This document shows, piece after piece, positions 4,021-19,515 of a stretch of 64,000 bases of DNA. The notes below the pieces were generated by a model. The model worked only from the letters and a program-made list of their open reading frames with translations. It ran no database searches and was not told the DNA's origin. Location: assembly GCF_002844395.1 (NCBI RefSeq), contig NZ_CP025197.1, forward strand, positions 2,294,001 through 2,358,000, in the 5' to 3' direction. The DNA comes from Acetivibrio saccincola (GTDB lineage Bacteria; Bacillota; Clostridia; Acetivibrionales; Acetivibrionaceae). The stretch's first letter is position 1. Each line of letters starts with the position of its first letter. The position numbers and the translations under genes are program-made.

Positions 4021-4065
4021 TATTTTTCCCCTTTTCTATTGTATTTTTTTATTTTTCACCTTAAC

Positions 4066-4899
4066 TTATTCAGGTATAAAAGTAGGGTTTTCTCCTGTTG
4101 TCAAGTCCAAATATCCCTTTTCATTTTCGTCAATATTATTAAAAAATATTTCCTTTAAAAGCATAATTTTATATTCATCCAATTGATTATATGCTCCTAA
4201 ATTAACTTTTACCCTCCAGTCAAGAAGAATTAATACATTATCTAGATCCGAAACATCAACTTCACATATATATTCATCTAATTTATTGGTAAAACTTTCG
4301 CCACTGCTTTTTCTTTGTGTAAAATTTATTACATCAAAAATTTTATTAAAAGCATCTATACCTTTTATATTATCTGCACTAATCATTTTACCCAAGCTAT
4401 ATCCATTTACATCCAAGCCTTCGATAATGGGTAGGTTTTCCCAATGTTTTTCATCTCCTGCATCGACAACAAATCCTTCATTATCAATTACAAGACTTGT
4501 GTTAATATAGGGTACGACAGCAGCCGGCTCCCTCTCTGTAATTGTTATCTTTACCCTGCCTGGATAAAACATACGTACTGCAACATCCTTTACATAGGAA
4601 CATCTGTCCAATATGCTTTCCTCTGATTTTGTTGACCTGAATGTAAACAAACCTTTGATATCAGAGGTTTTCACCAGCTCTCTGAACCAATTGGCCCCAT
4701 ATACTACATTTGATGCATTAATTATTTCAATGCTATTATAATGCTTATTGCCATAAACTTCAATGCTATTTATATAAAATAGTGGCGACAGGGCAACACC
4801 AACCAACAATGCAGCCAGAAGTATAATGATAAAAAGTCTTTTAATAATTCTTCTATTCTTTTGTTTCTTTTTTTTGGTGTAAATCTCTTCTCTTTTCAT
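4066..4899 (-). CDS. ftsQ: Cell division protein FtsQ/DivIB
   Basis: Bitopic division protein that bridges early and late divisome components with FtsL. It has a very basic cytoplasmic N-terminus (residues 1-20), one transmembrane helix (about 21-44), then a POTRA domain beginning INSIEVYGNKHYNSIEI and a beta domain with the FPxR-like FYPGRVKITITEREPAAVV. Length 277 aa is typical. It starts 10 bp after the stop of the murA 3' fragment, so it was cotranscribed with murA before the interruption. It now appears to depend on the promoter at 5877-5905. Confidence 0.9.
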   Translation of the reverse strand: MKREEIYTKKKKQKNRRIIKRLFIIILLAALLVGVALSPLFYINSIEVYGNKHYNSIEIINASNVVYGANWFRELVKTSDIKGLFTFRSTKSEESILDRCSYVKDVAVRMFYPGRVKITITEREPAAVVPYINTSLVIDNEGFVVDAGDEKHWENLPIIEGLDVNGYSLGKMISADNIKGIDAFNKIFDVINFTQRKSSGESFTNKLDEYICEVDVSDLDNVLILLDWRVKVNLGAYNQLDEYKIMLLKEIFFNNIDENEKGYLDLTTGENPTFIPE

Positions 4900-4909
4900 T
4901 TGTATTCCC

Positions 4910-5863
4910 TCAATCTTTTCTTTCTATCAAAGCACCTGCATTAGAAAGCTTCAGTTCTATATCTTCATAGCCTCTGTCTATGTGTTTTATACCACTTATC
5001 ACCGTTGTCCCTTCAGCTGCAAGACCGGCTAAAACCAGTGCAGCTCCTCCCCTCAGGTCCCTGGCACACACATTTGCCCCGGTAAGTTTTTCCACTCCTT
5101 TTATCACCGCAAGCCGACCTTCTAATTTTATATCCGCTCCCATTCTAAGAAGTTCTTCCACATGTTTGTATCTGTTGTCAAAAATAGTTTCCACAACAAT
5201 GCTGGTTCCTTTTGCAATTGATAAAAGGGATACAAACTGGGACTGCATATCTGTAGGAAAACCCGGATAGGGCAGGGTTCTTATCACATCTATGGACCTA
5301 GGTCTTGCTGGTCCATAAATATGTAATGAATCTCTTTTTAAATCAATGCAACAGCCTGCTTCCCTTAAGTAGGATACAATAGAAGATATATGCTCTGCCA
5401 CAATGTTTTTTAAAGTTAAATCCCCTCCTGTAATTCCCGCTGCTACCAAATATGTACCTGCTACAATCCTGTCAGGTATCACACTGTGCTCCACATTATT
5501 AAGTTTCTTTTTACTTCCGGTAATTCTTATTACACTTGTTCCTGCTCCTGAAACTTTAACTCCCATTTTAATTAAAAAGTTTTGAAGGTCAACTATTTCA
5601 GGTTCCTTTGCTGCCTGACGTATCACCGTCTCACCTTCTGAAAATACAGCTGCTAACATTATGTTTTCTGTAGCCCCCACACTGGGGAAATCTAATTGTA
5701 TATCACAGCCTCTGAGTTTATCAGCTTCACAGTACAAAAAACCATGATGCGCATCATGCACTTTAACTCCCATTTGTCTTAAAGCTTTAATATGCATGTC
5801 TATAGGCCTTGGACCTATTTCGCACCCACCTGTATAGGTAAGTTTACCGGCACAAACACTCAA
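4910..5863 (-). pseudogene. murA: murA 3' fragment (MurA residues from the catalytic loop to the C-terminus)
   Basis: UDP-GlcNAc enolpyruvyl transferase, the first committed peptidoglycan step, but lacking its first 114 residues. True MurA sequence begins at GGCEIGPRPID with the catalytic Cys and runs to a normal C-terminus, including PTDMQSQ, DLRGGAAL and HIDRGYED. The first 11 residues of the open frame (5833-5863) are foreign. The only early start is TTG at 5861-5863, with no Shine-Dalgarno and only a few bases after the predicted transcription start; the next ATG is past the Cys. The missing N-terminus is at 17841-18200. Probably inactive unless the segment excises or the two polypeptides complement each other. 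Confidence 0.85.
5811..5853. other. Left junction of the inserted segment (attL-like)
   Basis: murA sequence runs up to CACCTG at 5827-5832; from 5833 rightward the sequence is foreign to murA. The outer 21 bases (5833-5853) match the inverted complement of the right end (17837-17857) at 16 of 21 positions, including GGTA, GTTTA and GGCAC blocks. CACCTG recurs in direct orientation at the right junction. Seen directly; the interpretation as a recombination site is inference. Confidence 0.7.
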
Positions 5864-5876
5864 TATCTATTTTTAT

Positions 5877-5905
5877 ATTTTATCACTTCACAAAATAGGT
5901 ATCAA
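5877..5905 (-). promoter_or_regulatory. Outward-facing sigma-A promoter at left end of the segment
   Basis: TTGATA (5900-5905), a 17-bp spacer and TAAAAT (5877-5882) on the minus strand. Transcription would begin near 5870 and run through the murA fragment into ftsQ, sbp, ftsA and possibly ftsZ. It would replace the transcription that formerly entered from upstream of murA. Confidence 0.65.
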
Positions 5906-5907
5906 AT

Positions 5908-5939
5908 ATTTTTATAGGGAAATACTTCCCTATAAAAAT
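5908..5939. repeat. Perfect 14-bp inverted repeat between divergent promoters
   Basis: Arms 5908-5921 and 5926-5939 are exact complements around the 4-base loop ATAC. With A/T-rich outer halves it could be a bidirectional terminator or an operator, because it lies exactly between the outward promoter (5877-5905) and the murT promoter (5945-5972). Confidence 0.6.
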
Positions 5940-5944
5940 ACTTG

Positions 5945-5972
5945 TTCACAATTAAAATGTTTGTGTTATAAT
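5945..5972 (+). promoter_or_regulatory. murT promoter with extended -10
   Basis: TTCACA (5945-5950), 16-bp spacer, TATAAT (5967-5972) preceded by TGT, forming an extended -10. It lies 38 bp upstream of the murT ATG, which has AGGG as ribosome-binding site. Confidence 0.65.
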
Positions 5973-6010
5973 CTTTAAAGATAAAAATTTTACTAAAAGC
6001 AGGGATGTAA

Positions 6011-7393
6011 ATGAATCTTAGACTTACTTTTGCTATAGCGGTTACCAAATTATTAATTTTTTCACTGCGGATTTTAAACCGGGGTGGTACTACTTTACCT
6101 GGTAAAGTTGCTCAAAAAATTTATCCGGGCATAATTAAACATATTTCAAAATACCTTAAAATAATAATGGTTACAGGAACAAATGGAAAAACCACTACAA
6201 CAGGCATTATTAGTAAAATAATGGATAAAAATAAAATAGACCATATTACAAATAAATCAGGTGCAAACCTTGTAAGCGGGATAATAACCACATTAATTGA
6301 CTCTGTAAATTTAAAAGGAAAAAGTAAATGCAAAACTGCACTAATTGAAGTTGATGAAGCAGCCTTTAATGTAATAACCAATGACATAAAACCGGATATT
6401 TTAGTGGTGACAAACTTTTTTAAAGACCAGTTAGACCGCTTTGGCAAGCTAGATACAATTTTAAATAATGTAAAATCAGGGATAGAAAAATCACCGGAGG
6501 CAAAGCTTATTTTAAACGCCGATGACCCTCTTTGTGTTTCATTGGCTCAAAAGCATAAGGGTGAAATATTTTACTACGGGTTTGATGAAAATGCATATGA
6601 AGGCATAGATAATCCTTTAACTTCTGATGTGGTTTTTTGTATTTATTGTATGGGTAAATATGAGTACAAAAACAGGATCTATGGGCATTTAGGTACATTT
6701 ACATGTACCTCCTGCGGCTACAGCCGTCCCTCTTCCCATGTAACCTGTTTAAAAATTGATGAATTAAACAGTTCATACACAGAAATGGAGTTTTCAATAG
6801 GTGAAGAAAATTACAAGACCAAAATTAACCTGCCTGGTCTTTATAATGTATACAACGCCCTTGCAGCAATCTCCTTAGCACATATCCTGGAGGTTACACC
6901 TGAAAGCATTATAAATTCCCTTAAAAGCTTTGAAAGTACTTTTGGCAGGATGGAAACAATTAAAACTGACGGTAAAGCTATAAAATTAATTCTTGTAAAA
7001 AATCCTGCAGGATTTAACCAGGTAATTAATTTTCTTTTAGCTGAGCCAAAAAAGAACCAGATAGCCTTTTTAGTAAATGACAAACCGGGGGACGGGATAG
7101 ATGTTTCCTGGCTTTGGGATGTGGATTTTGAAGAGTTTTCAAAGATTCAGGATGATATTTCATGCTTTTATGCTTCCGGAAGCAGGGCTGAAGACATGGC
7201 GCTGAGATTAAAATATGCAGGAATTTACAGTGATAAAATAGAAATTATAAAAGACTATGAAGAGCTTATTAATAAGGGGCTTTCAAATACAGAAAAGGGA
7301 AATAGTTTTTACATACTCCCCACTTATACTGCATTATTGGATATAAGGGGTTTTTTAAAGAAAAAATTTAAATTAAAGGAGTTTTGGAAGTAA
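6011..7393 (+). CDS. murT: Lipid II isoglutaminyl synthase subunit MurT
   Basis: Mur-ligase-like subunit that activates the alpha-carboxyl of D-Glu in lipid II with ATP so that GatD can amidate it to D-isoglutamine. It has an N-terminal hydrophobic segment, the P-loop VTGTNGKTTTTG (about residues 54-65), the central Mur-ligase fold with EVDEAAF, a MurT-specific zinc ribbon CIYC...CTSC (about 211-240) and the C-terminal DUF1727 region (KNPAGFNQV onward). Length 460 aa is normal. gatD follows one base after its stop. It is the first gene inside the segment that interrupts murA and points away from the left junction. Confidence 0.93.
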   Translation: MNLRLTFAIAVTKLLIFSLRILNRGGTTLPGKVAQKIYPGIIKHISKYLKIIMVTGTNGKTTTTGIISKIMDKNKIDHITNKSGANLVSGIITTLIDSVNLKGKSKCKTALIEVDEAAFNVITNDIKPDILVVTNFFKDQLDRFGKLDTILNNVKSGIEKSPEAKLILNADDPLCVSLAQKHKGEIFYYGFDENAYEGIDNPLTSDVVFCIYCMGKYEYKNRIYGHLGTFTCTSCGYSRPSSHVTCLKIDELNSSYTEMEFSIGEENYKTKINLPGLYNVYNALAAISLAHILEVTPESIINSLKSFESTFGRMETIKTDGKAIKLILVKNPAGFNQVINFLLAEPKKNQIAFLVNDKPGDGIDVSWLWDVDFEEFSKIQDDISCFYASGSRAEDMALRLKYAGIYSDKIEIIKDYEELINKGLSNTEKGNSFYILPTYTALLDIRGFLKKKFKLKEFWK

Positions 7394-7394
7394 C

Positions 7395-8138
7395 ATGTAT
7401 AATTTAAATATCTGTCACCTTTACCCTGATATTTTAAATCATTATGGCGACCGCGGGAATGTAATAGCTTTAGAAAAGCGCTGTATTTGGAGGGGGATAC
7501 AGGTAAATATCTCAAATGTATCCTTAGGTGATGCATTTGAGTCTTGTGAATATGACATAATATTTTTAGGCGGCGGGGAAAATTATGAGCAAAAAATTGT
7601 ATTGGATGATTTAATAAAGGAAAAGGGAAATGAAATTAAAAACGCAATAAATAATGATAAAGTATTCCTGGCAATTTGCGGGGGGTACCAGTTTTTGGGG
7701 AAATATATTGTTACACAGGACAAAAGAGAAACAGAACTATTAGGGGCATTGGATTTTTGGACAATAGAAGGGGAAGAAAGGCTGGTGGGAAACTATGTTT
7801 TTCAATGTGATTTTTTGATAAATGAAATCTATGATGGAAAAATAGCCGGTTTTGAAAACCATTCAGGAAAAACCTATCTTGGCGAAAATGTAAAGCCTTT
7901 GGGAAAAGTCATAAAAGGACATGGCAACAATGGTGAAGACGGCTTTGAAGGGGCAGTTTATAAAAATGTATACTGCTCATATTCCCATGGAAGTCTGCTA
8001 CCTAAAAACCCTTCACTTACCGACCATTTAATAAGTACTGCACTAAAACAAAAATATAAAGATTTTGTATCCCTCCAGGTTCTAAATGACGGTTTTGAGA
8101 TAAAAGCCCACAACGCAGTACTAAAAAAAATCATTTAA
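7395..8138 (+). CDS. gatD: Lipid II isoglutaminyl synthase subunit GatD (glutaminase)
   Basis: Class I glutamine amidotransferase subunit that supplies ammonia to MurT. The nucleophile Cys is in AICGGYQFLGKY (about residue 94) and the catalytic His in YSHGSLLPKNP (about 198); the N-terminus NICHLYPDILNHYGDRGN is typical of the CobB/CobQ-like GatD family. Length 247 aa is normal. It is directly adjacent to murT, so the two form one operon. Together they amidate lipid II made by the dcw enzymes in this window, which fits a peptidoglycan of the meso-DAP type. Confidence 0.93.
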   Translation: MYNLNICHLYPDILNHYGDRGNVIALEKRCIWRGIQVNISNVSLGDAFESCEYDIIFLGGGENYEQKIVLDDLIKEKGNEIKNAINNDKVFLAICGGYQFLGKYIVTQDKRETELLGALDFWTIEGEERLVGNYVFQCDFLINEIYDGKIAGFENHSGKTYLGENVKPLGKVIKGHGNNGEDGFEGAVYKNVYCSYSHGSLLPKNPSLTDHLISTALKQKYKDFVSLQVLNDGFEIKAHNAVLKKII

Positions 8139-8155
8139 TTTTAAAACTAAAGTAC

Positions 8156-8182
8156 AGGCAGGGAATAAATTGAACCCTGCCT
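8156..8182. terminator. Hairpin between convergent gatD and the P-loop gene
   Basis: Exact 8-bp arms AGGCAGGG (8156-8163) and CCCTGCCT (8175-8182), nested in a weaker outer pairing of 8143-8152 with 8202-8212. It lacks a long T tract next to the inner stem, but its position between convergent genes suits termination in both directions. Confidence 0.5.
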
Positions 8183-8210
8183 ATAATTATGTTAAACTGC
8201 CCTTTTAGTT

Positions 8211-9284
8211 TTATGTAATTTTTGCCATGGTGGATTCCATACACAGTTTAACAGCTTCAAAATCCATATTTGGTGCATAATAAGCTTCTATATCATCATG
8301 TATGCTTTTTGCCCTTACAATATTTTTAATTCCTGTCCCCAACAAAAAACCAAAATTCTGCTTGTTTTCTTCAAGTACCAGTTCATTTATGAAAGACTTA
8401 TTAGTAAATTCATCAAAATCAATACATTCTTCAAATTCAACATCTGCAAAATGGTATTCATTTGATGTTGTAAATGAAATATTTAGCTCCCTTATTATTA
8501 AATGTTCAAGTTTAAAAGGATCCAGTGCGCAGTAAAAAGATTCTACATCAAATCCTCTTTCTGTTGCGGCTGTTTTTATTTTTTCAAGGAATACCTCCGT
8601 CCCTGTACCTGGCTTTCCGCTGACACAATAAATTTTATCTGTATCTAATACTGTAGAAAGATAATTCACAAGTCCCTTTGGAGTGATAGCGCTTGCAAAA
8701 AGTTTTCTTTCTCTCCCCACCCTATCTGATATTTCTATGTCATTAAATATAATGTTTATAAATTCCTGACTTATCTTATTGATTTTAGAAATATCAGTAT
8801 ATTTTCTTACCATTTCACTGCTGTCATCATAAATTAAATATGCAGCTTTTATATACCTGTATGCCCTTTTAAAATTTTCTTTAACTTCCATGTTGCCTTT
8901 TATTATTTTGTCTTTATTTTTCCTTATTCCATCTTCATCCCAAAAGTCACCTAAATGAATAATTTCATCCACTACTCCGGGATTTTTAGGATCCACTACA
9001 TGTGGCACTGTACCATCTAAAAGCGCCGTTTTTTTTGCAGGTATAACAACCCCGTCTATACTGTCACTGTCACTTGAACAGTGCATAAACTCCACGTCAT
9101 ATCCCATATCGAGAAACTGTTCCCCTATTTTTTTCATAAAAGTTGATTTTCCAACTCCTGGTCCGCCTTTAATACAAAATATCCTTTCCGCCTCGTCTTG
9201 AGGTAGTATGTAGTCATAATAGCTAAAAAAACCATAGGATGTATTGCCTCCAGGAAACATACGCCTTATTTTGCCTTTTGCCAT
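8211..9284 (-). CDS. Two-domain P-loop ATPase of unknown function (PRK06851-like)
   Basis: The protein has a clear Walker A motif, IKGGPGVGKSTFMKKIG, near residue 40 and a second, degenerate P-loop, VSGKPGTGTEVF, near 220, suggesting a duplicated NTPase with one active site. It resembles a conserved family seen in spore-forming Firmicutes with no assigned role. The start is the ATG at 9282-9284, because GGAGGGG lies seven bases upstream; a TTG further out falls within that ribosome-binding site. It is convergent with gatD. No membrane helix or signal is visible. Confidence 0.7.
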   Translation of the reverse strand: MAKGKIRRMFPGGNTSYGFFSYYDYILPQDEAERIFCIKGGPGVGKSTFMKKIGEQFLDMGYDVEFMHCSSDSDSIDGVVIPAKKTALLDGTVPHVVDPKNPGVVDEIIHLGDFWDEDGIRKNKDKIIKGNMEVKENFKRAYRYIKAAYLIYDDSSEMVRKYTDISKINKISQEFINIIFNDIEISDRVGRERKLFASAITPKGLVNYLSTVLDTDKIYCVSGKPGTGTEVFLEKIKTAATERGFDVESFYCALDPFKLEHLIIRELNISFTTSNEYHFADVEFEECIDFDEFTNKSFINELVLEENKQNFGFLLGTGIKNIVRAKSIHDDIEAYYAPNMDFEAVKLCMESTMAKIT

Positions 9285-9368
9285 AATAAACCCCTCCAAA
9301 AAACATTAAGTATACTATAAAATATGCATATGCCTGGATTATGTGATTTATAAGAATACTTTTATATA

Positions 9369-9731
9369 TCACTTAATATTAGCACCAAATGGTATAAATC
9401 CCAGTTTAGCAAGTTTAAAATGCTGAATCCCAAAAGGTATTCCTATAATTGTAACGCATAATACTATACCAATAAGAAGATGTATTAATGTAATTTCCCA
9501 GCCAAAAAAAATTATCCAAATAATGTTCAAAAAAAGCCCGCCTATTCCAAAATTACCGGCTTCTATTTCTTTTCCAAAGGGCCATAGCACAAAGGAAGCA
9601 ATTTTAAAGCATTGAATTCCAAAAGGAATACCAATAATTGTTATACACATAATCAGCCCTGCCAGCATCCACACTAATGCCGCTACCAAACCTCCAAATA
9701 TAAGCCATATAATATTACCCAGACATCCCAT
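9369..9731 (-). CDS. yccF: YccF-family membrane protein
   Basis: 120-aa membrane protein made of two similar halves, each ending in a near-identical motif: CITIIGIPFGIQCFKIA and CVTIIGIPFGIQHFKLA. This internal duplication is diagnostic of the YccF (DUF307) family; function unknown, inner membrane. The ATG at 9729-9731 is preferred over the upstream GTG because GAGGTG is correctly spaced from it. It appears monocistronic. Confidence 0.8.
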   Translation of the reverse strand: MGCLGNIIWLIFGGLVAALVWMLAGLIMCITIIGIPFGIQCFKIASFVLWPFGKEIEAGNFGIGGLFLNIIWIIFFGWEITLIHLLIGIVLCVTIIGIPFGIQHFKLAKLGFIPFGANIK

Positions 9732-9957
9732 TTTTTTCACCTCACATTAAAAATATGTAATAAACATTATTATTCATTAAATTTGTTCCAATTACAGTTT
9801 ATGTTGAATGAGTAACAAATAACAAAACAAAAGTTTTTATTATTTAAAAATTTTTTTAAAAAAGACTAAAGTTTTTTTTTATTTTTATCGATATGTATAC
9901 TGACAATGAAAAAACAATTTAATATTTACATATTTACTCCCCTAATTACTCCCCAAA

Positions 9958-10008
9958 ACCGTGCATTCTCCCCTCTCATTTTTTTTGGAATGCCACGGTC
10001 TTTTTTTT
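9958..10008 (+). terminator. Plus-strand terminator in the yccF-cbiO gap
   Basis: ACCGTGCATTC (9958-9968) pairs with GAATGCCACGGT (9988-9999, one bulged C) and is followed on the plus strand by eight T (10001-10008). No plus-strand gene precedes it. It may end an unannotated small transcript, or serve cbiO weakly on the minus strand. The remainder of 9732-10072 is A/T-rich with poly-A and poly-T runs and no convincing gene; the open frame around 9906-10088 is of low complexity. Confidence 0.5.
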
Positions 10009-10072
10009 ATCCTTTCATTACCTTTTTTTACCTTGATATAATGACACCAAAACCGCTATTGCTTTTTATAAT

Positions 10073-10912
10073 CTATACCTTTTTATAATTTATAACACTT
10101 AGCAATTGTTCCTTTGCCTCTTTTATGTTTACAGGTATTTTCACATTTATCCCTTCTTCTCTTAAGCTGTGAAAAAGTTTTGACAAAATAGGGGGCTCAA
10201 GTCCAACATCTTCAAAAATTCCAACATTGCTAAAAAGCTCCCTTGGTCCCTCCCCGCTTATTATTTTGCCGTCACTTATTAAGTAAATTTTATCTGCTAT
10301 TTCCGGTACAATATCTAAATCATGGGTGGTTATAATAAGTGTTATTCCAAACTCCTTATTTATTTTGTTTAAAAGGAACAGAATATCACTTTTTGAACTA
10401 ACATCCAAAGAATTAAAAGGCTCATCCATTACCAGTATTTTAGGTTTGTTTGCAATGGCACCTGCCAGTGCCACTTTTTTCTTCTGCCCGCCGCTTAAAT
10501 AATGGGGAATTTTATTTAAGATATCTTCTATTTTTAATAAAGCAGCTATCTCCCTTACTCTTTTATCAATTTCATTTTTATCCACCTTGTCATTTCTCAT
10601 TGTAAAAGCTATATCATCATATACCGTAGGCCCTATAATCTGCTCATCCACATTTTGAAACACCACACCTATGTACTTTCTAACCTTCTCAAAATTTTTA
10701 TAAGGATCCATTCCTAAAACTTCAACTTCCCCGTCCACCGCCTTTAGTAAGCCAAGAATATGAGAAATAAGAGTAGTTTTCCCTGCCCCGTTAGGACCTA
10801 ATATAACCACTCTCTCCCCCGGGTTTACCAAAAACTCCAAGCCGCATAGATGAACTTCCGTTTTATCCGGATAAAAGTGTTTTAAACAATTTACCTTTAC
10901 AATAGGATTCAA
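10073..10912 (-). CDS. cbiO: Cobalt/nickel ECF transporter ATPase CbiO
   Basis: ABC ATPase energising an energy-coupling-factor importer for Co2+ or Ni2+. It shows Walker A LGPNGAGKTTL (about residue 38), Q-loop VFQNVDEQI, signature HYLSGGQKKKVALAGA (about 137), Walker B ILVMDEPFNSLD and the switch His in TTHDLD. Length 279 aa is normal. It overlaps the end of cbiQ by four bases (ATGA), showing operon structure cbiM-cbiQ-cbiO. Substrate choice between cobalt and nickel cannot be read from this subunit. Confidence 0.9.
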   Translation of the reverse strand: MNPIVKVNCLKHFYPDKTEVHLCGLEFLVNPGERVVILGPNGAGKTTLISHILGLLKAVDGEVEVLGMDPYKNFEKVRKYIGVVFQNVDEQIIGPTVYDDIAFTMRNDKVDKNEIDKRVREIAALLKIEDILNKIPHYLSGGQKKKVALAGAIANKPKILVMDEPFNSLDVSSKSDILFLLNKINKEFGITLIITTHDLDIVPEIADKIYLISDGKIISGEGPRELFSNVGIFEDVGLEPPILSKLFHSLREEGINVKIPVNIKEAKEQLLSVINYKKV

Positions 10913-11616
10913 AAAACAATCACTCCCGCTAGAATAATTATAGATATTAGTACATACAAAAAATCTAAAAGTTTGAATTTTTTATCTTCATGCCAGTTTA
11001 TAATCCCGCCGCTGTATCCCCTTAAGGAAAAAATCTGATACATGCGGTTGCTCATATCTATTGAATGTATAACCATAACACCTATAGCACCTGCTACATT
11101 TTTTAAATTCGCAAAAATATTAAAAGCCCTGTAGCCGCCTCTAAGTCTCATACTTTTAATTAAATTCTCTATTTGATCAATAAATATAAACAAGGCTCTG
11201 TATGTAAAAAGAAATATATCCACTAAAAGTTTGGGTAGAAAAAGAGATAAAACCCTAAATATATCCACATAAGATGTGGTTGTTATAAGCAATATCATAT
11301 TAAGTGCCGCCCCCACTGCCTTAAATATTACAATCAGACCATGCTCAAAGGACTGCTGCATCATTATCAATGCAAAAACCAGACTGAAAAAAGCCGGATA
11401 TAATACTAAAACCCCCACAGTTTTAAGAGGTATTCTCGAAAATACCAATATTCCAATAAGAATAAGCATAATCCCCCCTATGTGGACTATGCTGTCAGAA
11501 ACCACAATAGATATTAAAATAAAAAGAGCAAAAATCATTTTGCTGACAGCTTTTAAATTATGAATCACACTATTTCCTGTAATTGATATATTGTCTATTT
11601 CTGCTAAATGATGCAT
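10909..11616 (-). CDS. cbiQ: Cobalt/nickel ECF transporter transmembrane subunit CbiQ
   Basis: T component of the ECF importer, 235 aa with five to six hydrophobic helices. The two coupling motifs with Ala-Arg-Gly-like cores are visible in the cytoplasmic region as SMRLRGGYR (about 154-162) and SLRGYSGG (about 197-204); they contact the CbiO dimer. The ATG has GAGGTATTTT upstream. It lies between cbiM and cbiO with a 4-bp overlap to the latter. Confidence 0.88.
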   Translation of the reverse strand: MHHLAEIDNISITGNSVIHNLKAVSKMIFALFILISIVVSDSIVHIGGIMLILIGILVFSRIPLKTVGVLVLYPAFFSLVFALIMMQQSFEHGLIVIFKAVGAALNMILLITTTSYVDIFRVLSLFLPKLLVDIFLFTYRALFIFIDQIENLIKSMRLRGGYRAFNIFANLKNVAGAIGVMVIHSIDMSNRMYQIFSLRGYSGGIINWHEDKKFKLLDFLYVLISIIILAGVIVF

Positions 11617-11669
11617 TTTAAAATACCTCTGTAAGTTTATTTATCTTAAACAACCCTTTTTATATATAA

Positions 11670-12455
11670 TTATTTATCAGTCACTGCCGTATTTGATTCA
11701 CCTGTTATATCAGGTCTTATCTTATTAAAGAATTTTACTATTAATCCTGTTCCCATTGATTCTGTAAAAATTCCCAATAATAAAATTATTACAATAGCAG
11801 TCCATCCTGAAAAAAACAAAAATTTCACATCTTTTACATCATGCCCCTCTTCATTATACTCTCCGCCATGTTGCTGCTGCAAGTGGCCGTCCTCATGTTT
11901 TTGGTGCACCCCTTCATTAGAGTGTTCCACTTCATGATGGTGATCTAAAAACTTATGTAAAAAAACCTCATACCCTCCGGTAGTAATGCCTATAAGGCCA
12001 ATCATCATGGTCATAGATACAATTACTCCAATTGCAGTGGCAATACTTGCACTTTTAAAAGGAGTCAATTTTTTGGACAAAAGTCTAAACAGCATACTTC
12101 CCACAAAAGCTTCAGCACCTATTATAATTGTATTAAGACCAACAATTGTCATACCTCCATGCCCAAAAAAAGCAAGTAAAAAGTTTACTACAAATATTGC
12201 AATAAACCCAAGTGCCGGTCCTGCTATAATAGCCGACAAAACAGCTAAGCTCAAATGAACGGGCAGAGGACCAAGGGGTACCGACATTCCTACAATCATT
12301 AAAGCTGCAACCACTCCTGTCATAGGAATTTTTTTCTTTAAATCTGTTTTCTCAACTTTTCGTAAAATAAGAAATATAATAAGTCCAACAATTAAGTAAC
12401 CTCCCAATCCCCAAAAGGCAGAGATTACTCCGTCTGATATGTGAATGTGACTCAT
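11670..12455 (-). CDS. cbiM: Cobalt/nickel ECF substrate-binding subunit CbiM with His-rich loop
   Basis: S component that binds the metal ion. The N-terminus SHIHISDGVISAFW is the family's metal-binding start, though the usual Met-His is here Met-Ser-His. Six to seven membrane helices follow. Between helices near residues 168-205 is a long hydrophilic loop with about 13 His and many Glu/Asp, which may gather metal ions outside the membrane. No cbiN gene is present; this loop may take its place. AAAGGAG precedes the ATG. First gene of the cbiMQO operon. Confidence 0.88.
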   Translation of the reverse strand: MSHIHISDGVISAFWGLGGYLIVGLIIFLILRKVEKTDLKKKIPMTGVVAALMIVGMSVPLGPLPVHLSLAVLSAIIAGPALGFIAIFVVNFLLAFFGHGGMTIVGLNTIIIGAEAFVGSMLFRLLSKKLTPFKSASIATAIGVIVSMTMMIGLIGITTGGYEVFLHKFLDHHHEVEHSNEGVHQKHEDGHLQQQHGGEYNEEGHDVKDVKFLFFSGWTAIVIILLLGIFTESMGTGLIVKFFNKIRPDITGESNTAVTDK

Positions 12456-12575
12456 ATTTTGCTTTCTCCTTTAATTAGTTTATTAAAAACAAGCTAAAAT
12501 AAATATGTTTTATATAGATTCTAACCCTTTTACAAATAATAATAACAATTTCTTCTCAACCTGTAAAGAAAAAAT

Positions 12576-13556
12576 TCAACGGGATAATGCACCTGATATT
12601 TTGTACAGCAGTACATAAATACCGCTTGCTAAAAATACAAACCAGAAAGTTACAAACCTGAAAATAAGGGCAAAAGCCAAAGATTCATAAGCTGCAACAC
12701 CCATAGAAGATAAAAACAAAACCGCAGATGCTTCAAAGCTTCCAAGTCCTCCCGGCAAAAGGGGTACCATCCCTATCATGTATGTTAAATAAGTTATGGC
12801 CAAAATGGGAATATAGCTTATATCAATTGATAAATAAACACAAACCAGATAAGCTTTTAAAGGAAACAAGTTCCATATAATTAATGACAGTACCAATTGA
12901 TAAAAAAGAACCCTCTTTTGCTTAAAAGCCTTTTTTATTGTATTTTTAAAAGTTGTAAGTCCGCCATCCAGCTTATTAATATGTTTTTTTCTTATAAAAG
13001 GTATTTTAGAAGCTATACCAACCATTATCTTTGGATTTATTATTGAAAATACCAACAAAAAAATCAATAGAAAAAGAAAAAGCAAGGATAAAATTAATAT
13101 TTTAAAATGGTTCTCTTTATGGCTTACATAATATAAAAATAAAATAGTTGCCAAAATGTTCATAAACAGAAAAACAATCATACTTATTGTTTTTTGTAAA
13201 ACAATTAAAGCAGAGCCTTTGCTATAAGGTACATTAAATTTATCCTTTAAAATGTACGCTTTTAAAAACTCCCCGCCTGCTTTAACAGACGGGGTTATTG
13301 ATTCTGCTATGGTACCGTACATATTTACATGGAAAATATCTTTAAATTTGATTTTTAATCCTGACGCTTTAGCTAAGTGTATCCACTGTAAATTAATTAA
13401 AAGTATTGTGAAAAGCTGAAGAAAGCAAATAACACTCAGTGCTCTTAAGCTTATTTTGGTAATATTATCAAACATAAGTTTATAATCAGCTGACCAGAGT
13501 ACCGGCAAAATCAGGATTAAAGCTATCAGTATAAGAATTAACCTTTTTACTTTCAC
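12576..13556 (-). CDS. UPF0104 / LPG-synthase-TM family membrane protein
   Basis: Polytopic membrane protein of about eight helices, related to the flippase half of MprF and to AglD. Family motifs: ESITPSVKAGGEFLKAY (about residues 89-105) and MVPLLPGGLGSFEAS near the C-terminus. It lacks the soluble lysyl-transferase domain, so it is more likely a lipid flippase or unknown transporter than an LPG synthase. GTG at 13554-13556 is preferred over GTG at 13562 because AGGAG is then eight bases away. It overlaps the preceding gene by about 70 bases, implying coupled translation. Confidence 0.75.
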   Translation of the reverse strand: MKVKRLILILIALILILPVLWSADYKLMFDNITKISLRALSVICFLQLFTILLINLQWIHLAKASGLKIKFKDIFHVNMYGTIAESITPSVKAGGEFLKAYILKDKFNVPYSKGSALIVLQKTISMIVFLFMNILATILFLYYVSHKENHFKILILSLLFLFLLIFLLVFSIINPKIMVGIASKIPFIRKKHINKLDGGLTTFKNTIKKAFKQKRVLFYQLVLSLIIWNLFPLKAYLVCVYLSIDISYIPILAITYLTYMIGMVPLLPGGLGSFEASAVLFLSSMGVAAYESLAFALIFRFVTFWFVFLASGIYVLLYKISGALSR

Positions 13557-14130
13557 TTTCACTTCTCCTGTCTTTCTTAATGGTAAACATAAAAGTAGAT
13601 TTTAATCCCAAGAATCCCTGTTTAATTTGCTGTATATATATATATTTACAGTTATCAACATGGATTTTTCTCAGCTTTTCAAAGCAAAACAAATTGCTTC
13701 TTAAAAGTATCCTGGTATCATCTGAAAGTTTGTTTGTAATGTTTTCCATTATCTCATCATGGGGCATTGCCTGACGGGCAATATGAATTACCGAAAAATC
13801 ACCGGCATTTATTTTCTGTCCGGATATCAGCCGGGCTTTAACACGATGGGAAAGATTAAGTTTTGAAATAATTTTATTTGCCCCCTCAACTGCAACAGGG
13901 TCCACATCAATTATCATCACCCTTGCCCCTGTCATAGAAGCCATTTGCAAGGCTGTACACGGAATTGACCCCCCACCTATAAAAAGTACTGAATCATTGT
14001 TATCAATCCCTGCCAGCTCCACTTCTTTTTTTACAATTTTTTTATAATAAGCGCTGTATAATTTCATTAATACAGTGCTTTTTGAAAATATCTTTTCCAG
14101 TTCTTTAGTCATAAAGGGTATTAATTTCAT
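13486..14130 (-). CDS. Nicotianamine-synthase-like SAM-dependent enzyme
   Basis: 214-aa protein with a Rossmann-like SAM site, SVLFIGGGSIPCTALQMAS (about 47-65), and an acidic ribose-binding strand, VMIIDVDPVAVEGA. The FIGGGxxPxT pattern and the following ISGQKINAGDFSVIHIA region resemble nicotianamine synthases of archaea and the staphylopine enzyme CntL, which join aminobutyrate units from SAM to make metal chelators. It is shorter than those (about 270-300 aa), lacking the N-terminal helical domain. Its place between feoAB and cbiMQO supports a metal-related role. A plain class I methyltransferase remains possible. Confidence 0.6.
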   Translation of the reverse strand: MKLIPFMTKELEKIFSKSTVLMKLYSAYYKKIVKKEVELAGIDNNDSVLFIGGGSIPCTALQMASMTGARVMIIDVDPVAVEGANKIISKLNLSHRVKARLISGQKINAGDFSVIHIARQAMPHDEIMENITNKLSDDTRILLRSNLFCFEKLRKIHVDNCKYIYIQQIKQGFLGLKSTFMFTIKKDRRSESESKKVNSYTDSFNPDFAGTLVS

Positions 14131-14165
14131 TTTCTACTCCACTCCGTAAATTCATAATAACAAAC

Positions 14166-15932
14166 TTACAATAATAAACTTATTATATTTGAAATCTGAT
14201 TAATCAATCCGCCAACAACAAGGGCTGTAACAAATGTAAAACTGCTTATTATAAGGGCGGTTTTAACACCAAACTCCTTTATTAATACAGCAAAAACAGA
14301 CAGACACGGGAGGTAAAAAAGCGCTACAACTGATGCTACCAAAAGCTGTATGGTAGAAAGATTTAGTTCAAGTAATGGCAAAACTGCAAATTCCCTTCTT
14401 AAAACTCCCAAAATCAGTCCTAAAGTAGCTTCCTTTGGTAAACCCAGCCATCCTCCCACAAATGGTTCAATGAAACCTGCTGCTGCATTTAAAACACCTG
14501 TTTCAACTACCAAAGCCGCAAAAACTATTGCTATCACCATAGGTATTTCAGCTTCAATCATAAAATGTTTTGTCCTGATGGATATTTTCTTTAACAGTGC
14601 CTTAATATCCGGCATTAAAAGGTTTGGTATTTCCAAAAGTATAGGGTCGGATTTTCCCGGAATTAGTTTTTTAGCAATAACCCCGCTTACAAACATGGCA
14701 AAGAATGAAATTAAATACACAGCTATTAAAGCCAAAACAGACTGCTCACCTAAAAGAGATATAAATGCACCTGTCTGTGCAACACATGGGACTGAAAGGG
14801 AAACAATAGAAGCTATTATGATTCTTTCTTTTTTAGTTGTTGCAGCCCTGCTCCCTAAAATAGCCGGCACTGCACATCCATATCCCATAATTATCGGGAT
14901 GATATTTCCACCATTTAGCCCTATTCTTTTTAAAATACCATCCACGAGTACCCCTAACCTTGGCAAGTAGCCGCTGTCCTCTAAGAAAGAAAGAGCAACA
15001 TAAAACAAAAATACGTAAGGAAGTACAAGGGCAAACGGCCACTCTATACCTTTTATCAATACCCCGAATTCACCTACCAGAATATTGTACAATATTCCTT
15101 CAGAGACAAATTTTGAAACTAAAGATTTCACAAAGGGGGCATATAAATTATTTATAATTGGAAGAAGTATCCCGCCTCTTAAGGCTTTTCCCCCTCCAAC
15201 TACTACACCTAACATTAGTGCTATAACCAAAAATGCAATGGGTATTCCCGGAAAAGGCTTTAGCATAAGATCTCCCATTTTTTCTAAAAAAGTAGGGTCA
15301 GACTCTCTTATTTTTTGTACCTTTTTAGCTATATCCTCGGACCTTTTCCACAGCTCATCTTCAGTAAGCTTTTCTCTTTCTTCATCTGTTTTTTTATTGG
15401 AGTAAATAGCTTCTGATACTTTATTTAATATCTCCCTAAGCCCCTTATTTCTTATAGCTATAGTAGGGATAACAGGGGCAGCAAGTTCCTCTTCTAAAGC
15501 CTCAATATCTATTTCTATGCCCTGGTTTGCAGCAACATCACTTAAGTTAACGGCAAAAACCATTGGGATATTTTTCTCCTTTAACTCTAATGCAAGGTAT
15601 AAATTTCTTTCTAAATTTGTTGCATCTATAACACAGATAATTGCATCTGCATTTTCATTTTCAAGGATACTTACCGCCACTTCTTCAGCTTTAGAAGTGG
15701 ATTTTAATGAATAAACCCCAGGAACGTCAATTAAAGTTGCTTTCCTGCCGTTAATATTTATTTCACCTTTTGTAAAACTGACGGTAGTTCCTGTATAGTT
15801 CGATGCTATAACATTCATTCCTGTAAGTTTTGAAAATATAACACTTTTCCCCACATTGGGATTCCCCATAAGCAATACTTTTAACTCATTATCAAAAGCT
15901 GCATTTGATTTTTTTTCTGAATGACAACTCAT
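14166..15932 (-). CDS. feoB: Ferrous iron transport GTPase FeoB
   Basis: Inner-membrane Fe2+ importer with an N-terminal G domain: G1 GNPNVGKSVIF (about residues 23-33), G2 NYTGTTV, G3 DVPG, and G4 NLSD. Two Gate domains follow, carrying conserved Cys in GYGCAVPAILGSR and SVPCVAQTGAF and GVLRREFA. At 588 aa it is on the short side for FeoB but covers all core regions. A Cys/His-containing start (MSCHSEK) is unusual. feoA lies 139 bp upstream in the same orientation, so both probably answer to the Fur site at 16329. Confidence 0.92.
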   Translation of the reverse strand: MSCHSEKKSNAAFDNELKVLLMGNPNVGKSVIFSKLTGMNVIASNYTGTTVSFTKGEININGRKATLIDVPGVYSLKSTSKAEEVAVSILENENADAIICVIDATNLERNLYLALELKEKNIPMVFAVNLSDVAANQGIEIDIEALEEELAAPVIPTIAIRNKGLREILNKVSEAIYSNKKTDEEREKLTEDELWKRSEDIAKKVQKIRESDPTFLEKMGDLMLKPFPGIPIAFLVIALMLGVVVGGGKALRGGILLPIINNLYAPFVKSLVSKFVSEGILYNILVGEFGVLIKGIEWPFALVLPYVFLFYVALSFLEDSGYLPRLGVLVDGILKRIGLNGGNIIPIIMGYGCAVPAILGSRAATTKKERIIIASIVSLSVPCVAQTGAFISLLGEQSVLALIAVYLISFFAMFVSGVIAKKLIPGKSDPILLEIPNLLMPDIKALLKKISIRTKHFMIEAEIPMVIAIVFAALVVETGVLNAAAGFIEPFVGGWLGLPKEATLGLILGVLRREFAVLPLLELNLSTIQLLVASVVALFYLPCLSVFAVLIKEFGVKTALIISSFTFVTALVVGGLINQISNIISLLL

Positions 15933-15971
15933 ATAATTTCACCGCCTCACCTGTTTAAAGCAATAAATTAT

Positions 15972-15998
15972 CCTTTCATATTTTAAAAATACGAAAGG
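15972..15998. repeat. Inverted repeat between feoA and feoB
   Basis: Arms CCTTTCATATTTT (15972-15984) and AAAATACGAAAGG (15986-15998) pair over 13 positions with one mismatch. There is no strong T tract on the minus strand, so an mRNA-stabilising or partially terminating hairpin between the two cistrons is more likely than full termination. Confidence 0.45.
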
Positions 15999-16071
15999 CT
16001 TTTATCTCTTTAAAATATATTAATCCCAAGAATACAAAATAAAGAAAATTAAATATTTTAAATGATATTTC

Positions 16072-16296
16072 TTAGCTTACATATTTAACTTCAATTTTTT
16101 TTGCTATATCCCTTGAAAGGGCAACATTTCTTTTGCCAAGTCTTACCACTACAGGACCTCCAAAAGGCTGTCTTGTCATTGAAGTTATTACCGTCCCTTC
16201 TCTAAAACCCATTGATTTTAATAATCCGATTTCAGGTAGTTTTTTTATAACACATTTAGTTGGCTCTTTAATATCGCATAGCACTACTGTATTCAT
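16072..16296 (-). CDS. feoA: Ferrous iron transport protein FeoA
   Basis: 74-aa SH3-like cytosolic partner of FeoB, recognised by IGLLKSMGFREGTVITSM and RLGKRNVALSRDIAKKIEV, the typical FeoA core. The start is the ATG at 16294-16296, since GGAGAT lies just upstream; an earlier in-frame ATG has no ribosome-binding site and would add 18 unconserved residues. First gene of the feoA-feoB unit, with a near-consensus promoter and a Fur-like operator in its leader. Confidence 0.88.
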   Translation of the reverse strand: MNTVVLCDIKEPTKCVIKKLPEIGLLKSMGFREGTVITSMTRQPFGGPVVVRLGKRNVALSRDIAKKIEVKYVS

Positions 16297-16328
16297 TTCT
16301 CCATCTCCTTTATTCTCTCTTTTCTTAT

Positions 16329-16343
16329 TGAAAACGATTCTCA
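16329..16343 (-). promoter_or_regulatory. Fur box upstream of feoA
   Basis: On the minus strand TGAGAATCGTTTTCA fits the 7-1-7 Fur motif TGATAATnATTATCA at 11 of 14 arm positions. It lies immediately downstream of the predicted feoA start site (promoter 16361-16389), the right place for iron-dependent repression. Confidence 0.65.
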
Positions 16344-16360
16344 ATGTCAACTTTAATTAT

Positions 16361-16389
16361 ATTTTACTCTATAACTTGTAGATTGTCAA
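16361..16389 (-). promoter_or_regulatory. feoA promoter
   Basis: Perfect TTGACA (16384-16389), 17-bp spacer, TAAAAT (16361-16366) on the minus strand. A second TTGACA (16345-16350) downstream has no good -10 partner. Confidence 0.7.
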
Positions 16390-16486
16390 TACATTATCAA
16401 AGTTTTTATATGATTTTTCACTTTGCATATTCTGAATAAAAAACAAAAATAAGTATTGATTTTTAAGTTATTAAATGGTATGGTAT

Positions 16487-16524
16487 TAAATGTATTTATA
16501 GTATTGTTGGTAAATGTATTTATA
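16487..16524. repeat. Direct repeat TAAATGTATTTATA x2
   Basis: Two exact 14-bp copies (16487-16500 and 16511-16524) spaced 24 bp apart, about 70 bp upstream of the 16591 gene. The spacing is roughly two helical turns, as for an operator bound by a repeated or dimeric regulator; the second copy contains TATAAT-like sequence. Confidence 0.45.
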
Positions 16525-16590
16525 ATAAACATTATGTTACTATTTACCTGTTTGACTAAAGAATTTTGTTAAATTGTAAGGGCGGGTCAT

Positions 16591-17190
16591 ATGCAAGTAT
16601 TTAAAAACAAAATTGTTATAATAAGTATTTTTATTTTGATAGCATTAATAATACTGGTTTATACTCAATTTTTATCACCGGTTAGCTTTTCCCTTAATTC
16701 TGCTAATTGGTATGTCGTTGATGATATAGAGTTTAATAGTATAAATTATCATTATTCTGAAGAGTATAAAAATTCCCCCAGTAATGATACACAATATCTT
16801 ACAGATTCAGAAGTACTTCCATCAAATGATAAGAATGATTATGTTAAAGTATTTTATAACGTAAAGGCAAAAAACAAAAGCATATTTGATATTGTACAGG
16901 TTGATTCCATGGTATATGAAATTGATGATAAATATAAAGACAGGTTTTTATACTCTTATTCAGCTTCATGTATTATGGTTCAGTCGGTAAACCGGCTTGG
17001 AAATTCACTTATCCCTTGTGATGTTTATATTTATGTAGGGGGTTTAGAAGAAGAGGAAATCAAAGATCTTATAAAAAGTATTTCTTTAAAGTTAATTTAT
17101 CAAACAGAATTTTTTGGAACACGTACTAAAATTCTTGATACAAGAAATGTAAATGAATTTATAAACAGTCCTTATATTCTGGCAGAATAG
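16591..17190 (+). CDS. Membrane-anchored protein of unknown function
   Basis: 199 aa with one N-terminal transmembrane helix (about residues 8-28, [17 protein letters not shown]) and an extracytoplasmic domain rich in Tyr, Asn and Asp. No known domain is recognised. It sits 16 bases upstream of a broken LolD/FtsX-type ABC transporter gene and shares its direction, so it may have been the accessory or extracellular subunit of that system, in the manner of MacA-like partners. Since the transporter is destroyed, its present use is doubtful. Confidence 0.5.
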
Positions 17191-17206
17191 AAAGAGGGGT
17201 AAGTTA

Positions 17207-17777
17207 ATGAATATTATTAAACTTAAAAACGTAAATTTGAAGTATGGCAGTGGAAGTAACAGTGTTGATGCATTAAAAAATATGAATTTATCAATAGATA
17301 AAGGGCAAGTGGTGGCTATTACCGGAGCATCAGGATCAGGAAAAAGTACACTGCTTAATGTAATGAGTGGTTTAGACAAACCCAATTATATTTGCATTAA
17401 TATTTTTTATAACAGTTTCAGTTACTGCAATTAATTGTGCAACTACCGTGTTTATGAGAATACAATTGAGAGAAAAAGAATATGCCATGTTAAGAGCTAT
17501 AGGTTTAATGCCTTCAAGTTTAAAACATATAATAGTATATGAAATAACCATACTTACAACAGTAGGATTACTGCTGGGATATATTTTGTCCATTGTATCT
17601 ACTAAGATTCTCCATAGCTATTTTAGTGTAATGATTGGTAATTATATGTATCAAATTCCATTTATAATTTTGCTGCCAATAAGTGTTTTCATAGTTTTGG
17701 TTCTTGGCTTATCATGTATACCTTTAATTAAAAGAATTAATAATATACAGGTTATAAGGGTTCTAAACAGTATTTAA
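17207..17777 (+). pseudogene. Fused remnant of an ABC exporter (ATPase head joined to FtsX-type permease tail)
   Basis: The first 57 codons encode the start of a LolD/MacB-type ATPase with Walker [23 protein letters not shown]. Right after that the sequence changes frame into the C-terminal part of an FtsX-domain permease: [17 protein letters not shown], then REKEYAMLRAIGLMPSSLKHIIVYE and the last membrane helices to 17777. Everything between, roughly the rest of the ATPase and most of the permease, has been deleted with the join near 17384. A ribosome-binding site AGAGGGG precedes the ATG. Certainly non-functional. Confidence 0.8.
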
Positions 17778-17836
17778 TTTTTAAAAAAATCATGCTGTTT
17801 CTTTATACGCAAAATAGATAAAGTCATCAGTAAAAA

Positions 17837-17873
17837 GTGCCTATAAACCTACCCATTCACCTGGGTAGGCAAT
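17837..17873. other. Right junction of the inserted segment (attR-like)
   Basis: Bases 17837-17857 are the inverted counterpart of the left end (16/21 with 5833-5853); CACCTG follows at 17858-17863, then murA resumes with GGTAGGCAAT. A perfect 8-bp inverted repeat (17848-17855 with 17862-17869) spans the junction. Together with the left junction it defines a unit of 12,031 bp including one core copy. Confidence 0.7.
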
Positions 17874-18200
17874 AGTCACTTTTTTAAACCTTGATAAAAT
17901 GGGACCTAAAAAAATAATTGAAGACCTCATTTCTACTGCGAGATCTTCGGGAACTTCAGTGCTGTTTATAGTTGAAGAATCAACTGTTACCACACCTTCC
18001 TCAAAGGTGACCTTGCAACCTATCTTCCTTAAAATCTCCAGCATTCTTTCCACATCTCTCAATCTTGGACAATTTTTTATAACGCTTATTCCATCGTTTA
18101 ATACTGTAGCAGCAAGTATAGGCAAGACAGCATTTTTTGATCCGTCAACAGACAATGTTCCCTTTATTTTGCGACCTCCTGTTATCACTAATTTACTCAT
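17841..18200 (-). pseudogene. murA: murA 5' fragment (MurA residues 1-114)
   Basis: Starts MSKLVITGGRKIKGTLSVDG with substrate-binding Lys22-Asn23 in GSKNAVLPILAA and the MRSSIIFLGP segment, then ends VTIAYPG followed by four foreign residues and TAG. It lacks the catalytic Cys, which is in the other fragment at 4910-5863. GGAGGTG precedes the ATG, so a 119-aa peptide is probably still made. Joined through CACCTG the two parts read IAYPG-GCEIGPRPID without a gap and give 419 aa, the usual length of the enzyme. A terminator separates it from murG. Confidence 0.9.
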
Positions 18201-18360
18201 ATAAGCACCTCCACTGCCGGGTGGTTATTCTTTATTATATTTAAATATTATAACTATAAAGTATATTACTATTTTATGCGTGGTTTACAAAAGTGTTACT
18301 TTTATCATTTATGAGGAAAAAGCCAGTATTTACCATATCTTTTATTATACTAAGGCTTTA

Positions 18361-18390
18361 AAAAAGAACTCATTTCTGAGTTCTTTTTTA
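18361..18390. terminator. Terminator after murG
   Basis: Perfect 13-bp arms AAAAAAGAACTCA (18361-18373) and TGAGTTCTTTTTT (18378-18390) around TTTC, with runs of T on either strand. It ends the mraZ-to-murG transcript, so murA must have had its own promoter in 18201-18360; a weak candidate there is TAAAAT with a poor -35. Confidence 0.85.
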
Positions 18391-18403
18391 AGGCTTTTTT
18401 ATA

Positions 18404-19504: not shown

Positions 19505-19515
19505 AATCTTTCACC

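Follow-up and report, generated by a model that had tools for sequence, protein, structure and literature searches.

A murA gene stored as two halves in Acetivibrio saccincola and its relatives, probably joined by a large serine recombinase in the sporulating mother cell

Introduction

In B. subtilis and C. difficile the skin element interrupts sigK in frame, and in the known case a large serine recombinase restores the gene in the mother cell. Other sporulation genes are also cut and rebuilt by site-specific excision: spsM by SPbeta, spoVFB by vfbin, gerE by gin and yabG by yin (PMC10747680, PMC4191935, PMC5595907). Of these, yin was reported from one strain (PMC10747680), and the title of the report on gin in gerE calls it non-prophage (PMC5595907). 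The attP site of serine integrases is pseudo-palindromic, with a half-site of 25 bp (PMC3783163). Here we describe a gene that, like sigK, is cut in frame: the murA gene of Acetivibrio saccincola, which lies as two halves ∼12 kb (12.0 kb) apart, cut at the catalytic loop, in a 64 000-nucleotide stretch of the chromosome (C1:2294001-2358000, hereafter the window) of genome G000 (one contig of 3,604,547 bases, 99.7% complete).

The explanation that fits best, and that we consider probable, is that the halves are a stored form of murA and are joined during sporulation, in the mother cell, by a large serine recombinase that we call MurA-LSR. A search of titles and the starts of abstracts in the open-licence PMC literature, with subscription journals and preprint servers outside its scope, returned no paper on a rearranged murA.

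Results

The two halves of murA join in frame

The 5′ half (17841-18200, minus strand) encodes MurA residues 1-114, then five codons past the junction and a stop, and matches positions 2-112 of PF00275. The 3′ half (4910-5863, minus strand) encodes MurA from the GGC codon at 5827 onwards, retains the catalytic cysteine and matches positions 108-417 of the same profile. The hexamer CACCTG is present at both breakpoints (5827-5832 and 17858-17863), and joining there is predicted to give 114 + 305 = 419 residues, reading TIAYPG-GCEIGPRPID across the junction, so that the two halves together span PF00275 with its catalytic cysteine loop. A junction of the same kind is found in the uninterrupted murA of a relative, G014 (TISYPGGCEIGPRPID). 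GC[ED]IGPRP is present in 41 parsed C-halves, the same pattern having served to find them. An earlier note on this window had described two MurA halves on one strand 12 kb apart, a direct CACCTG repeat, an in-frame join to 419 residues and the restored gene order murG-murA-ftsQ. All of this was borne out: the predicted junction is like that of uninterrupted relatives, and murG (18404-19504, minus strand; Glyco_transf_28 and Glyco_tran_28_C) upstream and ftsQ (4066-4899, minus strand; POTRA_1, FtsQ-type) downstream lie outside the halves.

The same codon is cut in most genomes of the order

Fifty-eight genomes of the order, which consists mainly of spore-formers, were searched with the N-half and the C-half of murA. 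The N-half was found in 54; its frame stops shortly past the PG codons in 46 and continues to 421-438 residues in the eight with an intact gene (G014, G021, G025, G028, G034, G036, G049 and G057). The C-half, too, was found in 54 of the 58 genomes, 46 of which have it as a frame of its own (310-353 residues). Two genomes gave the C-half only (G001, G004), two the N-half only (G023, G031) and two neither at the limits used (G052, G026). Among genomes with the gene, murA is therefore cut at the same codon in 46/54. Named genomes with a cut N-half include Acetivibrio mesophilus, Anaerobacterium chartisolvens and Ruminiclostridium cellobioparum; their match coordinates equal those of G006, G038 and G047, and on this identity we call genus g6 Ruminiclostridium-type. 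The intact G049 belongs to the same family (f5) as four split genomes and carries no orthologue of MurA-LSR.

Both halves lie on one contig in 17 genomes. In 15 of these they are in direct orientation, N upstream of C, 10-254 kb apart: 12.0 kb in G000, 90.7 in G003, 253.5 in G007, 12.4 in G016, 23.2 in G017, 48.6 in G020, 11.5 in G030, 10.1 in G039, 12.1 in G041, 10.6 in G042, 10.5 in G043, 10.6 in G044, 10.5 in G045, 11.1 in G047 and 92 in G048. The halves are in opposite orientation in G010 (606 kb) and G015 (528 kb). The segment between them varies among species in size, content and even orientation. Misassembly was rejected as an explanation, the same cut being present in 46 genomes, of which nine are single-contig assemblies holding both halves (G000, G007, G010, G015, G016, G039, G043, G045 and G048). 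This distribution indicates that the cut is ancient and common to members of the order.

The junctions resemble attachment sites

Pattern parsing recovered 38 of the 46 N-junctions (17 genera) and 41 of the 46 C-junctions (21 genera), the intact G049 having been removed from the C set. On the N side, cross-genus identity falls from 0.58 to 0.44 over positions +5 to ∼+24 past the PG codons and is 0.26-0.31 thereafter; on the C side it is raised from about −28, being 0.55-0.60 over −25 to −6, as against 0.28-0.34 further out. A 6-bp repeat alone would mean little; the same cut in 46/54 genomes, together with this conserved non-coding DNA at both junctions, raises it above chance.

The conserved flanks form two arms, the N-side P′ arm being the reverse complement of the C-side P arm, with an identity of 0.63 at one of 13 offsets and 0.19-0.32 at the other 12 (33 genomes); the match within a genome is slightly above that between genomes (0.65 against 0.57; 32 genomes). 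The predicted by-product of joining, in its majority form about TATGTGCCAATAAANTAACACACCCGGGTGGGTGTGTAACTTTATNGGCACATT, is a palindrome around GG. This GG is invariant between genera in the 38 N-sites, where the search pattern itself demands the PG codon pair, and in the 41 C-sites, where the pattern does not. Pseudo-palindrome, arms of about 26 bp and central dinucleotide are the attP-type features seen here. In the window, with approximate limits, the N-side site (17834-17883, minus strand) consists of a B half of murA codons and the P′ arm, with the central GG at 17860-17861; the C-side site (5805-5855, minus strand) consists of the P arm and a B′ half of murA codons, with the central GG at 5829-5830.

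Constraint extends into the coding parts. Over the last nine codons of the N-half, between-genus agreement at four-fold synonymous sites is 0.735 (four sites), compared with 0.2875 (standard deviation 0.045, maximum 0.38) at the 16 such sites elsewhere in the N-half (41 genomes). The attB of a serine integrase is about 10 bp shorter than its attP; here the frozen synonymous sites extend ∼17 bp from the centre on one side, the other side being confounded by coding constraint. In five intact murA genes compared, the ACT codon has changed in all five and the GGT codon in four. Judged by these patterns of conservation, selection at the junction acts on the DNA and not only on the protein. The junctions resemble the attL and attR sites of a large serine recombinase, and a site-specific, DNA-level nature of the cut is well supported. 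The P′ arm of one genome, G055, departs from the consensus.

A large serine recombinase tracks the split

Six large serine recombinases and one fragment are encoded in G000, none of them inside the window. One, MurA-LSR (C1:2436639-2438162; PF00239, PF07508 and PF13408), lies about 124 kb outside the segment, unlinked to murA; in G007 its gene falls within the 254-kb segment, at a distance of about 152 kb from the N-half. An orthologue, whole or in pieces, was found in 47 of the 58 genomes: 44 of the 46 with split murA and three in which no N-half was found (G001, G004, G052). None of the eight intact genomes has one (Fisher p 4e-8, not corrected for phylogeny). For G031 and G048, only the N-terminal part is among the matches listed (73-74% identical). 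In five split genomes (G011, G012, G019, G032, G035) the orthologue is the only PF07508 protein.

As a prediction test, murA was inspected in nine genomes picked by recombinase similarity. SIG427, a metagenome-assembled genome not among the 58, has a recombinase of 47% identity and a cut murA; its record labels it Oscillospiraceae, it cannot be placed outside the order, and our confidence is slightly lowered by this. Four genomes with 33-41% recombinase identity have an intact murA. Three at 52-64% are split, but these are the known G006, G038 and G047, and one partial metagenome-assembled genome gave no match.

Distances between MurA-LSR proteins correlate with those between MurA C-halves (r 0.75, reached in 0/2000 permutations; 29 genomes), as joint inheritance would predict. 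MurA-LSR appears to be domesticated and inherited with its host, and from the co-occurrence only we infer that it is dedicated to the murA site. As to a phage source, one exact attP pattern gave no match in viral contigs, and identity was at most 33.9% among the 12 listed of 196 matching phage records. Accidental action of the sigK recombinase on murA was considered and rejected: G000 has an uninterrupted sigK, as do five split genomes whose only PF07508 protein is MurA-LSR, and G028 combines a split sigK with an intact murA and no MurA-LSR.

Two further observations concern the recombinase genes. Between the upstream stop and the catalytic motif, six of 31 parsed MurA-LSR genes have no in-frame ATG, GTG or TTG (that of G000, at L009:829-2352, and those of G004, G005, G008, G010 and G011); an ATA or ATT after a Shine-Dalgarno-like stretch hints at a throttled, non-standard start. 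Elsewhere in G000 (C1:3022249-3024582) three serine recombinase matches stand in a row, two of which recur, equally spaced at ∼2.0 kb, in G007, G015, G016 and G039.

The recombinase gene is itself cut in Ruminiclostridium-type genomes

In seven g6 genomes (G030, G039, G040, G042, G043, G044, G045) the MurA-LSR gene is in two parts, divided near residue 136. In G039 (L208; C1:2508800-2526000) a 14-kb insert in the gene carries another serine recombinase (L208:2030-3544), which over the stretch compared is 82-87% identical to its counterparts at this position in G042, G043 and G045, and 53% identical to one in G048. This second recombinase gene adjoins the C-part of MurA-LSR in G039, G042, G043 and G045, and the insert has its own repeated junction core and inverted arms. 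If the insert recombinase is active, one recombination must precede the other.

Both halves are maintained

Within family f1, the ratio of non-synonymous to synonymous substitution rates (dN/dS) is 0.04-0.11 for the N-half (seven pairs), 0.04-0.115 for the C-half (nine pairs) and 0.08-0.13 for MurA-LSR (eight pairs). The halves and the recombinase are under purifying selection, and the joined gene appears to be needed.

A probable link of the split gene to sporulation

Upstream of murA, at 18270-18296 (minus strand), lies a sigma-K-type promoter motif, ACACTTTTGTAAACCACGCATAAAATA; the window holds seven matches against 2.8 expected. The form sought was AC-N15-17-CATAnnnT[AG], the -10 part of which we take to be that of sigma-K. 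Of 45 parsed loci, 40 have it no more than 260 bp upstream; 200 rounds of shuffling gave 1.4 on average and 6 at most. With longer windows it is present in 46/46 parsed loci, and in 50/52 in total when additional parsed loci are counted; in genus g6 it lies further out, at roughly 190-350 nt. One parsing run left eight loci unparsed and another seven of 53, partly overlapping, and G033 was never parsed. Tiled control windows of the N-half loci contained the motif in 41 of 418, true sites included. The whole MurA paralogues of G000 have no such motif within 260 bp. Genomes of the order with intact murA also carry it, so that expression of murA late in the mother cell may predate the cut; among the four intact genomes of the prediction test it is present in SUG1222 and Clostridiales 43-6 and not in BRH_c8a and Pelotomaculum.

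Two other full-length MurA-like genes were found in G000 (frames of 429 and 424 residues), so the split murA need not serve growth. Given these and the conserved promoter motif, it is probably not the vegetative copy.

Among 40 relatives, sigK was found, whole or in part, in 33/33 split genomes, although for G031 only one half is among the matches listed. Six relatives with intact murA have sigK whole in four cases, in halves in G028 and with no strong sigK or sigE match in G014; G026, which lacks this murA, also gave no strong match to either. In G000 and the other listed members of its family sigK is whole. Skin-type interruption leaves sigK halved or partial in eight of the 40 relatives (G017, G022, G023, G028, G030, G031, G038, G039). 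For C. thermocellum DSM 1313, sporulation is described as inefficient, and asporogenous strains are mentioned (PMC5887222).

In each of nine g6 genomes searched (11 in the genus) the only coaE lies inside the segment between the murA halves. The segment of G039 also holds genes that by eye are polA, aroF and murT/gatD; in G000, the single coaE is outside. A cell that had excised its only coaE would be most unlikely to leave descendants, in keeping with a terminal mother cell. The promoter motif and this gene content argue strongly that joining would be timed to the mother cell.

The intervening segment does not look like a mobile element

The segment between the halves (5833-17857) contains 13 main open reading frames (ORFs). 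By Pfam these include murT, gatD, an ATPase-like gene, YccF, cbiOQM, a protein with an LPG-synthase-TM domain, feoB and feoA, as well as a weakly nicotianamine-synthase-like protein, an ORF without Pfam match and an FtsX fragment. No recombinase was recognised by Pfam among the 13, and the window has no PF07508 match. No prophage-like content was seen, the genes being ordinary or of no assigned function by Pfam (G000) and by eye (G039), with PHROGs left unsearched. Gene content gives the 12-kb segment no look of a mobile element, and a recent transposon or prophage insertion was rejected, no such gene having been recognised by Pfam among the 13 main ORFs. Adjoining the N-side junction, 17448-17777 encodes the C-terminal end of an FtsX-type permease, apparently what is left of a gene that has been lost. 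Between murG and murA, an inverted repeat with a T run, terminator-like by eye (18355-18400), would separate murA from the upstream cluster, which fits murA having its own promoter.

Discussion

A proposed model for the joining of murA

We propose that the murA of the division-and-cell-wall cluster is kept in two halves, one bordered by an attL-type and the other by an attR-type site, and that MurA-LSR would recombine these sites across the central GG of the glycine codon directly before the catalytic cysteine. An uninterrupted murA would be restored by excision where the halves are direct and by inversion where they are opposed, with an attP palindrome as by-product. Joining would be triggered by a directionality factor and confined to the sporulation mother cell, late, at the sigma-K stage; the joined murA would then supply precursor for the spore cortex.

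Several observations weigh against this model. No joined murA or attP was found in any assembly examined. In many genomes the P arms are degenerate: with at most one mismatch, TTGGCAC occurs in 17/37 N-side arms and GTGCCAA in 13/40 C-side arms. Serine integrases do not recombine attL with attR without a further factor (PMC3783163), and no candidate for a directionality factor was found, a comparison of recombinase neighbours having returned only recombinase pieces. G023 has an N-half but neither MurA-LSR nor a C-half. In G055 the only recombinase found is a different serine recombinase (L215:5645-8637), 35% identical, ∼1 kb past the N-half of murA; another integrase may have taken over this target there. 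Stop codons interrupt the recombinase N-parts of G030 and G040, and the gene of G013 is in three pieces, so that the system may be decaying in these genomes. The murA of G017 and SIG427 lacks the promoter motif, and splitting is not needed for sporulation, given whole sigK in four of six relatives with intact murA. Finally, MurA-LSR has no clear sporulation promoter: a sigma-K-like motif precedes 0/31 genes, and a sigma-E promoter, considered as a candidate, was set aside as weak (8/31 against 3.2 in shuffles). The last point is not strong evidence, because the skin recombinase of C. difficile is constitutive and a mother-cell-specific directionality factor sets the direction (PMC5025042).

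Alternative explanations

The constitutive skin recombinase bears equally on the alternative that survives best, although we think it unlikely: that recombination is real, but serves as a phase or stress switch in a vegetative subpopulation. The lack of a clear sporulation promoter before the recombinase would suit such a switch but, given that precedent, says little. The inverted G010 and G015 would lose no DNA, and invertible loci are described in C. thermocellum DSM 1313 and other Clostridia (PMC5903667). Against this, excision would delete the only coaE in the nine g6 genomes, and 254 kb in G007, leaving joined cells hardly able to grow, and the sigma-K-type motif precedes murA in nearly all loci parsed.

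That the halves are translated separately and assemble into one enzyme is very improbable. Both are under purifying selection, and in G000 a TTG, the sole usual start upstream of the catalytic cysteine, stands 12 codons before GGC; including G000, 13 of the 41 parsed C-halves have some usual start. The other 28 have no ATG, GTG or TTG between the upstream stop and the cysteine codon, which makes a split protein unlikely. Nor would it account for non-coding DNA conserved for ∼25 bp beyond the coding parts and then not, for synonymous sites frozen only at the junction, or for the co-occurrence of the recombinase.

Equally improbable, in our view, is a relic, in which murA was broken once in an ancestor and its halves are decaying. 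The presence of two other MurAs would permit this, and a few genomes show a damaged recombinase and degenerate P arms; but the low dN/dS of halves and recombinase and the conservation of attachment sites and promoter motif speak for maintenance. RNA trans-splicing guided by the complementary flanks, which would explain why the DNA following the N-half and that preceding the C-half are reverse complements, is the least credible, there being no Rfam family at gathering score in 4000-19600 (which also led us to reject a self-splicing intron), the palindrome with its ∼26-bp arms having the look of a serine-integrase attP (25-bp half-site; PMC3783163) and the recombinase tracking the split.

DNA joining by MurA-LSR is thus the reading that we favour. 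The earlier note had offered either excision or split-protein function, and it is the second, disfavoured by missing starts and frozen synonymous sites, that we set aside. Its suggestion of a second MurA was met by two, and its picture of a vegetative essential gene as host probably does not apply. Ancient separate paralogues or a misassembled contig, which it had named as findings that would overturn it, are not what the relatives show. Its likening of the locus to a reversible, skin-like element holds for the exact reversibility and for the comparison with skin, but not for the segment, which is variable and whose genes are ordinary or of no assigned function, with no recombinase recognised by Pfam.

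Implications

In its widest form our reading is that, in most of the order, a recombinase that is domesticated and unlinked carries out programmed rearrangements of the chromosome in the terminal mother cell, switching on a spore-specific MurA, and that Ruminiclostridium-type genomes add a two-step cascade. The rearrangements would comprise excisions of up to 254 kb that include essential genes, or inversions of more than 500 kb; in the cascade, an element that encodes a further recombinase interrupts the MurA-LSR gene at a conserved codon, and this further recombinase would have to act before MurA-LSR became available. Taken whole, we regard this as evenly balanced between right and wrong. 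If true, model cellulose-degrading bacteria can have a complete gene for one peptidoglycan enzyme only once DNA has been joined, and the distances and orientations involved differ from those of skin-type elements in the cited literature. This would explain one of several MurA copies and place a tight genetic lock on late spore-wall synthesis. It would also make available a naturally occurring recombinase for which evolution has produced many variants of the target site, and illustrate the conversion of a phage-type integrase into a developmental factor of the host. Where annotations dismiss the two partial MurA genes of these species as errors or pseudogenes, they would have to be corrected.

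Comparison with known systems

Several MurA copies are also known as the MurAA, MurAB and MurAC paralogues of Firmicutes, of which MurAB helps engulfment in B. subtilis (PMC9600426); the part of that paper drawn on here does not mention a split murA. MurA-LSR shares PF00239, PF07508 and PF13408 with large serine integrases, and the half-site of about 26 bp compares with 25 bp (PMC3783163), but no phage cargo lies beside the murA sites and the recombinase is apparently domesticated. The interruptions of spsM by SPbeta, spoVFB by vfbin, gerE by gin and yabG by yin are discrete elements, whereas the murA cut is at one codon in 46/54 genomes of an order; unlike murA, none of the four interrupted genes encodes a cytoplasmic enzyme of peptidoglycan-precursor synthesis.

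The closest parallel is with skin. Skin-type elements usually hold the recombinase gene inside the element, beside the 5′ fragment, and have prophage content, neither of which is found in the murA segment of G000. That segment is ordinary chromosome, 10 to 606 kb separating the halves among relatives, and in G000 the recombinase gene lies outside it; in two murA cases joining would have to proceed by inversion, and the sigK of G000 is itself uninterrupted. With neither an internal recombinase nor prophage content, the murA case would work like skin, but we do not class it as skin-type.

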